The notes below the pieces were generated by a model. The model searched no databases and had not been told where the DNA came from. It saw only the letters and a list, made by a program, of their open reading frames with translations. A program made the position numbers and the translations under genes. A DNA stretch of 64,000 nucleotides, taken from positions 577,030 to 641,029 of the forward strand of contig NZ_LR792632.1 of the NCBI RefSeq assembly GCF_902827225.1. Reading direction: 5' to 3'. This document shows, piece by piece, positions 11,218 to 64,000 of this stretch. Source of the DNA: Methanocaldococcus lauensis (lineage in GTDB: Archaea > AGJL01 > Methanococci > Methanococcales > Methanocaldococcaceae). Each line of letters begins with the position of its first letter. The first letter of the stretch is position 1.

Positions 11218-11360
11218 TAATTTTGTTTTAAAAAACTGGATGGAATTACTTATTTTATTGAACTATATAAAAATTAATGTTGTATTACATATTCTAATAA
11301 TTTATATATTTCTATATATAAATTTTTTATGCTATTAAAAATAAAAAATTTAAATATTCT
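11218..11360. other. Very A+T-rich spacer between lysS and CRISPR array 1
   Basis: About 140 bp of nearly pure A/T holding the probable lysS promoter (minus-strand TATA-like TATATATAGAAATATATAAA around 11305-11325) and nothing else that I can identify. It separates the leader-distal end of the array from lysS. Confidence 0.5.
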
Positions 11361-12877
11361 CATTTCCTTAGAGGTCTGAGTTTTAAACCCATAGGGCTCC
11401 GCCCTATTGGGATACCCGGGATGCATTGCTTCGCTAACGCTCAGCAATGCCTCTTAAATTAAAATCATTTTTCCCTTTGGGGTCTGATTTTAAACAGATA
11501 ATAGCAGTGTTGAAGATAAGAGAGATGTTCCAGAATATCCATCCCCTTAGGGGTCTGATTTTAGACATTATTACTATCTCTCATATGGAAGATTTAGCAC
11601 AAGTGTTTCCATCCCCTTAGGGGTCTGATTTTAGACAAGTATTGAAGATATTACGGAAAATGATTTATTAATTTCTTTCCATCCCCTTAGGGGTCTGATT
11701 TTAGACAATTATTAACGCATTCCTTATAGTCATTCTACTATTTTTTCCATCCCCTTAGGGGTCTGATTTTAGACCAAAACAATACACAACCAAAAACTAA
11801 CAAACCAAAGTGGATAGAGTTTCCATCCCCTTAGGGGTCTGATTTTAGACGATGTTATATATTTAAATACTCTTAAAAATTATATGGTTTCCATCCCCTT
11901 AGGGGTCTGATTTTAGACTATATTGATGAGAATGGAGAGAAGTTTTGGGCTTTAGAAACGTTTCCATCCCCTTAGGGGTCTGATTTTAGACCAGATGATG
12001 AAATGATTGAAATATTCAAAGAAGCAACAATGTTTCCATCCCCTTAGGGGTCTGATTTTAGACGTTAGGTGGCATACATTTGAGATTTGTGGGCATAGAA
12101 TGTTTCCATCCCCTTAGGGGTCTGATTTTAGACTCCCATAACCTAAATTTTTGAAATTTTAAAAAAGTTTCCATCCCCTTAGGGGTCTGATTTTAGACAT
12201 AATAGGTTGGTATTGTGGTTTGATACAACTATGTTTCCATCCCCTTAGGGGTCTGATTTTAGACAGGTTCGTTGGAGACAAGTTAAGGAAAAAAGGAAAA
12301 GGTTTCCATCCCCTTAGGGGTCTGATTTTAGACCTGGATTGGGAGGAAAACCAGCTGCAAGAGAATGGGTTTCCATCCCCTTAGGGGTCTGATTTTAGAC
12401 TTGTGTTGATTGCTTGACTTATGTATGCAGCTAAGGTTTCCATCCCCTTAGGGGTCTGATTTTAGACCATTTTATCCCTCTTTTTTAAAAATTTCAAAAA
12501 TTTGTTTCCATCCCCTTAGGGGTCTGATTTTAGACAAAAAAATTGTAAAATAAAAAAGTTAGTATTTAACTGTGTTTCCATCCCCTTAGGGGTCTGATTT
12601 TAGACAGGAAAACTCATAAAGGTAAGTTAGTTGAATTTGAGTTTCCATCCCCTTAGGGGTCTGATTTTAGACCTTTTTCAATTTTAAGAAAATTTTAGGT
12701 TATGGAAGTAAGTTTCCATCCCCTTAGGGGTCTGATTTTAGACGAAGAATGGCTCAATACAAGAAAAGATGAAGATTTTTGTTTCCATCCCCTTAGGGGT
12801 CTGATTTTAGACACACATTATGCTATGAGATATGACTACGAAACTGTTTCCATCCCCTTAGGGGTCTGATTTTAGAC
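11361..12877 (-). CRISPR. CRISPR array 1: 20 standard repeats plus 2 degenerate distal repeats
   Basis: Twenty 32-bp repeats, first at 11535 and last ending at 12877, read GTTTCCATCCCC then TTAGGGGTCTGATTTTAGAC on the plus strand, with spacers of 33-44 bp. Transcription is on the minus strand: the crRNA repeat has a CCCC-TAA-GGGG hairpin and ends in the 8-nt handle AUGGAAAC, and the leader is at the high-coordinate end. Three distal repeats vary at the first position (ATATCC, CTTTCC, TTTTCC). Two decayed repeats, 11361-11388 and about 11466-11495, end in TTTTAAAC and bracket a 69-bp GC-rich element. The repeat is shared with array 2 next to the type I-D cas genes, so Cas6 of that locus probably processes both. 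Confidence 0.97.
11389..11457 (-). repeat. GC-rich hairpin element at the distal end of array 1 (copy 1 of 2)
   Basis: A 69-bp segment identical to 32927-32995 at the same place in array 2. It lies between two degenerate repeats where a spacer should be. It holds two strong hairpins, ATAGGGC-TCC-GCCCTAT and GCATTGC-14 nt-GCAATGC, with ATACCCGGGAT between them. In the direction of array transcription the CCC-AATAGGGC hairpin comes last, followed by GGGTTTAAAA. GC content is far above the surroundings, as for structured RNA in this type of genome. It may terminate the pre-crRNA, cap its 3' end, or be a small mobile repeat. Confidence 0.85.
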
Positions 12878-13242
12878 AGGGCATAATTTTTTGAGATTAA
12901 GGACTAAAATTACTTTATTATGCTTCTTTGTTGGGGGGTTATAGTTCGGAGGGTCAGTAACCCTTGTTATTTATATACCTCCGAACTTATATATAAACTT
13001 TTCTATTTTTATTTATTAGTTTAAAAATTCTTTAAATTTTTAATATTAACCTAATTGTCGGAGAAAATTAGGTATAAAGACAATTAACTAAAATCTCCTA
13101 AAAATCTCAATAATTTAATAAAACCGAATACTCAAATTAATCAAAATAGACGACCCTCCAAAATTTAATAAAATCCCCTAAAATTTAAAAATATTAAATT
13201 AAAATCCTCTAAATCAAAAAATAAAAATTTTTAGCGAGAGAG
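12878..13242 (-). promoter_or_regulatory. CRISPR leader of array 1
   Basis: About 365 bp homologous to 34369-34733 beside array 2. The stretch next to the first repeat (AGGGCATAATTTTTTGA...) is almost identical in the two. The minus strand carries a TATA box (12987-12997, TTTATATATAA), then an inverted repeat GTTCGGAGG (12978-12986) / CCTCCGAAC (12944-12952) enclosing a second TATA-like TATATAAATAA and GGGTTACTGACCC. The expected start site falls inside this palindrome. A further inverted repeat, TAATTGTC/GACAATTA (13052-13059 / 13079-13086), lies upstream of the promoter. It matches the long repeat described beside M. jannaschii short-repeat arrays. Confidence 0.88.
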
Positions 13243-32894: not shown

Positions 32895-34368
32895 ATATCC
32901 ATCCCCTTAGGGGTCTGATTTTAAACCCATAGGGCTCCGCCCTATTGGGATACCCGGGATGCATTGCTTCGCTAACGCTCAGCAATGCCTCTTAATTTAA
33001 TGTTATTTTCCCCTTAGGGGTCTGATTTTAGACACACAAAAGATGTTAAGAGAACAAATAGAGTTATTAGATTTCCATCCCCTTAGGGGTCTGATTTTAG
33101 ACGATAATAACGGCTGGGGAGTAATAGACACTAATGAAAAATTTCCATCCCCTTAGGGGTCTGATTTTAGACTACGATTTGACAATAAAAAATAGGAGAA
33201 GAGAGAGCAACATTTCCATCCCCTTAGGGGTCTGATTTTAGACTTTTGTTTTTTCGATACTACCAATTTTAATTCTTTCAGCTTTCCATCCCCTTAGGGG
33301 TCTGATTTTAGACTGTTGTTGTGAATGTGAATGTAATTTAATTCATTATATTCAATCTATTTCCATCCCCTTAGGGGTCTGATTTTAGACGGACATTAAT
33401 TGCAGGAGCACCTGTTATTTCAACTGTATTTCCATCCCCTTAGGGGTCTGATTTTAGACATTTCGGTTGGTTGTCCTAATTGTTCTAAAACGGATTTAGA
33501 TTTCCATCCCCTTAGGGGTCTGATTTTAGACAAAAATCATCCGTTTCAGACATCCACATTTATGCGTTATTTCCATCCCCTTAGGGGTCTGATTTTAGAC
33601 GTTGAACTTTTAGAAATTTATCCATATCATTATCAATTTGTTATTTCCATCCCCTTAGGGGTCTGATTTTAGACGATGATGGGCAATGTTATATAGTCTT
33701 TACGAATTTAATTTCCATCCCCTTAGGGGTCTGATTTTAGACAATGTTCATCCTCAATGTATGTCATTAGAGAGTTCGAATTTCCATCCCCTTAGGGGTC
33801 TGATTTTAGACTGAGGAGACTAAAACATTCAAAGCTCTATGTACGTTCCAATTTCCATCCCCTTAGGGGTCTGATTTTAGACGGGTTGGGGTTTTGGGCT
33901 GGCTGGCGGGTGGGTATATTTCCATCCCCTTAGGGGTCTGATTTTAGACTTTAGAAAAAGAGACTGTTGAAGAGGAAGAAAAAAAAAATTTCCATCCCCT
34001 TAGGGGTCTGATTTTAGACAAAATATAGAAAAGTTATGCTGGAAAATTTTAACGACAATTTCCATCCCCTTAGGGGTCTGATTTTAGACCTCCAGGAAGC
34101 TCAAAAAACATCCCTCTGACAGATGCATTTCCATCCCCTTAGGGGTCTGATTTTAGACAAGAAAATTATCCCTGCAAACAGCATTATAACAATAGATATT
34201 TCCATCCCCTTAGGGGTCTGATTTTAGACGTGAAATATGATAATAGCAATATTTGGGGTGGAAAATAATTTCCATCCCCTTAGGGGTCTGATTTTAGACT
34301 TAGCTGCATACATATCACAAGCTATCAACACAAAAGATTTCCATCCCCTTAGGGGTCTGATTTTAGAC
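32895..34368 (-). CRISPR. CRISPR array 2: 19 standard repeats plus 2 variant distal repeats
   Basis: Nineteen 32-bp repeats from 33071 to 34368, the same as in array 1 except that the first plus-strand base is A instead of G in 18 of the 19 (C at 33282), so the crRNA handle reads AUGGAAAU. Spacers are 36-45 bp. Distal variants are at 32895-32926 (ends TTTTAAAC) and about 33002-33033 (5' part altered), and they bracket the 69-bp GC-rich element. The leader is at the high-coordinate end and transcription is on the minus strand, towards cas2. It lies directly beside the type I-D cas genes. Confidence 0.97.
32927..32995 (-). repeat. GC-rich hairpin element at the distal end of array 2 (copy 2 of 2)
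   Basis: Identical over 69 bp to 11389-11457 and in the same place relative to leader, repeats and direction. It starts immediately after the terminal TTTTAAAC of a repeat and ends ...GCCTCTTAA. The tract between it and the next repeat is A/T rich and differs between the copies, as do the adjoining repeats, so the element is better conserved than the repeats around it. It carries the same two hairpins described for copy 1. Confidence 0.85.
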
Positions 34369-63874: not shown

Positions 63875-63910
63875 AATTTCCCTCCTAATTATAGATTTTA
63901 TTCAATATAT

Positions 63911-64000
63911 TTTTAGGTATTTAGTTATATTTATATTTTTAGGTATTTAGTTATATTTATATTTTTAGGTATTTAGTTATATTTATATTTTTAGGTATTT
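63911..64000. repeat. 26-bp tandem repeat running off the window end
   Basis: The unit TTTTAGGTATTTAGTTATAT + TTATAT recurs with a 26-bp period starting at 63911, 63937, 63963 and 63989 without change, and continues past the window. It lies upstream of the FIST gene. Each unit contains a TATA-like TTATATTTATA. It may affect FIST expression or simply be an unstable simple array. Confidence 0.9.

Follow-up and report, generated by a model that had tools for sequence, protein, structure and literature searches.

The double-hairpin element of 69 bp that closes two CRISPR arrays of Methanocaldococcus lauensis is very probably a short, non-autonomous mobile element that is built of two hairpin modules and inserts with a long target duplication, its copies at array tails having been homogenised by gene conversion. 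The window, a stretch of 64,000 nucleotides (contig NZ_LR792632.1 of assembly GCF_902827225.1, positions 577,030 to 641,029 of the forward strand), holds two of these tails, and arrays and copies were read in sequence stretches around matches in the source genome (G000), a second genome of the same species (G041) and related genomes (all other G numbers).

In both arrays the order from the distal end towards the leader is an outermost degenerate repeat (R'), the 69-bp element, a short AT tract, a penultimate degenerate repeat (R'') and the regular repeats, a layout that a sequence-only reading of this DNA had described and that the coordinates confirm. On the minus strand, array 1 comprises R' at 11357..11388, the element at 11389..11457, R'' at 11465..11495, regular repeats at 11535..12877 and the leader at 12879..13200; beyond R' lies an AT-rich trailer (11330..11356, same strand) that is common to other arrays with or without the element. 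The tail of array 2, also on the minus strand, consists of R' (32896..32926), the twin element (32927..32995) and R'' (33003..33033). The minus strand is the pre-crRNA sense, the leader lying at the high-coordinate end and the repeat ending in GATGGAAAC in that sense. The element starts with CCATAGGG, which R' abuts as the left copy of the duplicated target, and ends with CTCTTAA; R'', the right copy, has lost its first bases. Its two modules, listed without strand, are H1 (11389..11417; CCATAGGGC-tcc-GCCCTATTGG plus GATACCC), which carries a family-wide pattern with compensated stem changes, and H2 (11418..11457; GGGATGCATTGCT...AGCAATGCCTCTTAA), whose stem covaries.

The same reading was right that the two copies are identical over all 69 bp (11389-11457 = 32927-32995), that they are rich in GC against their surroundings (57%, compared with 29% in the window and 15% in the adjacent flank) and that both hairpins fold (minimum free energy -31.4 kcal/mol, z = -4.6, with 0 of 200 shuffles folding as well). 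The TTTAAAA that it noted after the last hairpin in the pre-crRNA sense needs another explanation: these letters open the degenerate repeat (GTTTAAAA...) and are no U-run of a terminator, and the element itself yielded no terminator-like site. No Rfam match stood above the gathering score, the returns being only CRISPR repeats, one chance-level family below the gathering score, and tRNAs.

With the tail as BLAST query, the source genome returned 29 matches, and because of these genome-wide copies a chance origin of the tail element is excluded. The exact H1 pattern has 25 copies there, of which 11 belong to main-type arrays or to what remains of them and 7 adjoin repeats of a second type, and family copies also lie away from the main arrays. 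Used as a query, the leader of array 1 gave nine full-length matches in the genome, and in eight of the nine main-type arrays the end away from the leader bears the element or a hairpin variant of it, in one orientation, the exception being array L102 (G000 1272932); in the conspecific genome the element is found at six of nine main-type arrays, always distal and in one orientation. Repeats of the second type (GTTTCCATCCTTGTTTTAATGG...), found in G000 at L022, L023, L102 (754-1000), L155 and L156, survive as very short arrays that also bear family hairpins, the junction of the element lying inside the repeat. One element copy is internal, with 13 repeats on its distal side (L009, G000 1344000-1352000). 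This composite, which looks like two arrays joined, runs from a leader through 8 repeats to a full tail unit, whose element is a variant, and on through the 13 repeats to a second tail. Another locus, L014 of the source genome, is an orphan tail that keeps the element after its array has gone, the orthologous L112 site in G041 holding an array of 29 repeats. At L107 (G041 290000-297000) the tail unit of repeat, element, repeat and spacer is tandemly doubled at a spacing of 182 bp.

Perfect conservation amid drifting repeats had been taken as a sign of either selection or recent gene conversion. When orthologous tails of the source genome and G041 were paired by their distal flank, the elements proved only 91.3-94.2% identical and the flanks 86-97%, whereas paralogous tails within one genome share 97-100% of the element and 54-65% of the flanks. 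The tail elements are thus shown to evolve in concert, and since identity within a genome exceeds that between orthologues, the identity of the two window copies is due to gene conversion or tail exchange, not to purifying selection on the sequence; of the earlier proposal, homogenisation stands and selection on the sequence falls away. The doubled tail unit of L107 and the composite L009 are consistent with an exchange of array ends.

Beyond this species, a 70-bp query found matches in 12 of the 41 genomes searched, namely 10 of 13 genus-level genomes (source included) and two of another genus in the same order. The H1 pattern, CCATAGG-N4-20-CCTATTGGNATACC, is present in 11 of 14 Methanocaldococcus genomes and has one further occurrence elsewhere in the order; its reversed control gave zero matches in the same genus genomes. 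Across 11.3 million contigs of GTDB genomes it was met in Methanocaldococcaceae or Methanococci records only, bar two matches in unrelated genomes that were set aside as chance, and the family is essentially confined to the Methanocaldococcaceae and their order. Three viral matches were considered as carriers of the family and were likewise rejected as chance, having no paired stem. Within the genus most copies sit away from CRISPR arrays, and the family is interspersed in those 11 of 14 genomes. The element is therefore not confined to array tails, many scattered copies being the outcome that the sequence-only reading had itself named as the mark of an ordinary interspersed repeat, and its alternative suggestion of a mobile palindrome is the one that the interspersed copies bear out.

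The modules recombine freely in their arrangement, H1 and H2 occurring alone, together, inverted, or chained with several other hairpins. In G006 (L143-L151) a near-identical core recurs at nine sites, inside multi-hairpin chains of up to about 280 bp, and its sequence points to a recent amplification. In G023, which belongs to another genus of the same order, at least 17 matches were found, nearly all of them the H2 module alone; the copy read at L047 has H2 followed by a different hairpin (GATGAAAC...GTTTC).

Covariation in the stems, a check proposed with the original observation, is strong in both modules. Since the H1 pattern itself fixes parts of both outer arms, information comes from the inner pairs and the outermost one alone; across 170 distinct copies the latter is C-G in 155, G-C in 14 and mismatched in one, and inner pair 4 shows C-G 80 times and G-C 79 times. 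For the H2 stem, 41 full elements have 96.1% of cells paired (82.6% when shuffled), double-sided changes in 8 of 10 pairs and a covariation score of 0.40 against 0.15, and 0 of 500 shuffles reached these values of pairing, double change and covariation. Because the stems covary so strongly, structure is seen to be kept in this family while sequence drifts.

Evidence on how the family moves comes from copies outside arrays, where the left flank up to CCATAGG reappears after the element. Imperfect direct repeats above the 99% level (p<0.01) of a null built from 1104 shuffled flank pairs surround 32 of 93 distinct non-CRISPR copies, about 1 being expected. In these 32 copies the duplication is 31-80 bp long, its left copy ends 0-4 bp from CCATAGG in 29, and its right copy begins about 0-12 nt past the element; the 32 include L083, L188, L232 and L022, which still have CRISPR-like repeats missed by the filter, and the conclusion is the same without them. 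The orthologous sites in relatives are single-copy and empty, and long flanking repeats together with such empty sites therefore mean that insertion duplicates a long stretch of target. The clearest case is L082 in G008, where an exact 35-bp duplication covers the last part of one ORF together with the first part of the following one; both flanking ORFs are open in G008, and in G006 and G001 the site is a single copy without interruption. Gene 3' ends are likewise rescued by duplication at L078 and L091, and at L157/L234 the 3' end of a tRNA is duplicated. About two thirds of the non-CRISPR copies have no significant duplication, and these have either decayed or been inserted otherwise. No within-species empty site outside arrays was seen at the two G041 sites checked, both of which are also filled in G000, though with different hairpin modules. 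At two sites the conspecific genomes have different hairpin modules between the same flanks (L245 vs L160, L244 vs L157), which is a case of rapid module replacement or nested insertion.

The anatomy of the CRISPR tails is that of the gene sites: R' abuts CCATAGGG and, in main-type arrays, runs to the precise end of the repeat, and R'' follows a few nucleotides past the element with its first bases lost. Filled and empty states can be compared here as well, at one orthologous locus (L109 in G041 with the element, L102 in G000 without it) and among G009 arrays with homologous trailers (L085 with it; L115, L119 and L114 without it). L102 and five G009 arrays lack the element and keep a normal first repeat; the pristine first repeat of L102 fits loss by recombination, with loss and never having had the element both possible. 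Sixteen main-type arrays were read in G005, G006, G007, G008, G010 and G012, and an H1 hairpin stands at the tail of none of them; all of these genomes except G010 have the family elsewhere, so that the absence from relatives' arrays that the sequence-only reading had raised as the mark of a one-off duplication is what these six genomes display; in G009 the element is present. In G007 the distal ends of two other arrays hold another family member, made of H1 and a further hairpin; its junction lies inside the repeat, and for one of these arrays a leader is confirmed on the opposite side. Different family hairpins thus stand at the tails of arrays with different repeats in the source genome and G007, and the association with CRISPR tails is real and recurrent. 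Given these other members in G007, it therefore arose more than once, or was inherited and then remodelled.

Two alternatives give the element a role in the array itself. That it functions as a 3' cap or as a terminator of pre-crRNA transcription, selected at array tails, is quite unlikely, even though it sits distally and in one orientation at eight of nine main-type arrays in the source genome and six of nine in the conspecific one, and related elements end other arrays in the source genome and G007. A dedicated cap or terminator, as had been suggested, sits poorly with copies away from arrays, the internal copy of L009, element-free arrays with the same trailer in this species and G009, the 16 arrays of related species without it, the missing U-run and terminator-like site, and a sequence that is not conserved between conspecific orthologous tails. 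Because the main arrays of most other species do without the element and a homologous element-free array exists, the element is neither essential nor a general terminator. An anchor or barrier against repeat recombination and tail loss, also among the earlier ideas, is very unlikely: the element does persist where an array was lost (L014 vs L112), and its flanking repeats are degenerate, but the comparison of L102 with L109, in which the element is missing and the first repeat pristine, is as expected from deletion by repeat recombination, and the tails themselves are swapped between arrays. It is no necessary anchor, for L102 and the five G009 arrays keep a normal first repeat without it.

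Two further alternatives accept insertion and differ on its agent. REP-type palindromes moved by a Y1 transposase (IS200/IS605 or RAYT) would account for short, extragenic, multicopy palindromes in mosaics; no Y1_Tnp match was found in the source genome or most carriers, however, and Y1 transposition would not be expected to produce long target duplications, which leaves this reading very improbable indeed. Least credible of all is integration of hairpin DNA by Cas1-Cas2 as an over-long spacer, the duplicated repeat then being ordinary adaptation. The element does take the place of a spacer, and in main-type arrays the end of R' coincides with that of the repeat, but the same anatomy recurs at genes and tRNAs, normal spacers in these arrays measure roughly 34-45 bp, and Cas1-Cas2 is unlikely because the duplication varies in length (31-80 bp) and junctions fall inside the repeat in two other contexts, G007 and the second repeat type.

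In the mobile-element reading that we favour, insertion takes place beside a target stretch of which about 30-80 bp ends up duplicated, the left copy abutting CCATAGGG; such duplication leaves genes, tRNAs and CRISPR repeats unbroken when the element lies between them or at their ends. In the ancestor of this species and G009, one insertion may have struck a CRISPR repeat and duplicated it. Because new spacers enter at the leader, the insertion would stand at the old end of the array, which growth at the leader end would have left it to mark, and the element could then have spread with array duplication, while gene conversion, or an exchange of the ends of arrays, keeps the tail unit of repeat, element, AT tract and repeat alike from array to array. 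The enzyme behind such moves would work through a staggered cut or a template switch across 30-80 bp. Y1 transposase (PF01797) is absent from G000 and 7 of 9 other family-carrying genus genomes and present in G001 and G011, and reverse transcriptase (PF00078) was found in 0 of 14 genus genomes, the control genomes being positive. An autonomous parent was sought in inverted H1 pairs, but between the two halves of the pairs in G012 (978 bp apart) and in G006 (5.2 kb apart) lie only ordinary host genes, one of which we take to be HisA-like, and no transposase was seen, so that these pairs are not transposons. A function may be hinted at by the constant orientation and distal placement of the elements in three kinds of array. 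A bolder reading, possible but doubtful, is that an undescribed mechanism, duplicating 30-80 bp of target, moves the family and lets it land harmlessly in CRISPR repeats and in the dense gene boundaries of a small archaeal genome, and that its repeated one-orientation presence at tails has been co-opted for array maintenance or transcription.

Several known systems share traits with this family. REP, BIME and REPIN sequences (RAYT/TnpA-REP) are likewise short, multicopy, extragenic hairpins that form mosaics and keep structure over sequence; the present family differs in lacking a Y1/RAYT gene in the source genome and most carriers, in having no GTAG/CGTC-type tag that was noticed, and in its long flanking target duplications. 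Archaeal MITEs are also non-autonomous and multicopy and show target-site duplication, usually of a few to 15 bp. The 31-80 bp found here is far longer, no parent IS was found for the hairpin family, and the 69-bp form, with its CCATAGGG start and CTCTTAA end, has no terminal inverted repeats, although inverted ends are present in composites that join H1 to a second, inverted H1. Long, variable target duplications are known from IS elements of the IS1634/IS1549 type, and the likeness lies in that trait. Small inserts of two or chained hairpins, apparently mobile and non-coding, occur in mitochondria as the double-hairpin or repetitive hairpin-forming elements of Allomyces and sponges (PMC2800124); those of Allomyces have no flanking duplications (PMC2800124), in contrast to the 31-80 bp of the archaeal family. 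As far as the RepRanger bulk lists were consulted (PMC12306157), they count many extragenic palindromes in M. bathoardescens and M. vulcanius and contain no element family, insertion signature or CRISPR-tail association. The open-licence literature searched held no description of the hairpin family, its long duplications or its placement at CRISPR tails; within that literature the family and its insertion signature are undescribed, in keeping with the original remark that no element of this type was known.

Few mobile DNAs are as poorly understood as small palindromic elements, and the present family offers a clean, testable insertion signature, long target duplications that empty sites confirm, although its hosts have no obvious enzyme that would produce it. 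Such insertion explains why dozens of inserts can be borne by the compact genome of a hyperthermophile, accounts simply for a conserved CRISPR-tail element with no CRISPR function assumed, and makes of the tails a record of array ends exchanged or homogenised between CRISPR loci. A separate repetitive feature, AT-rich tandem repeats with a 26-bp period, lies at the very end of the window (63906-64000).
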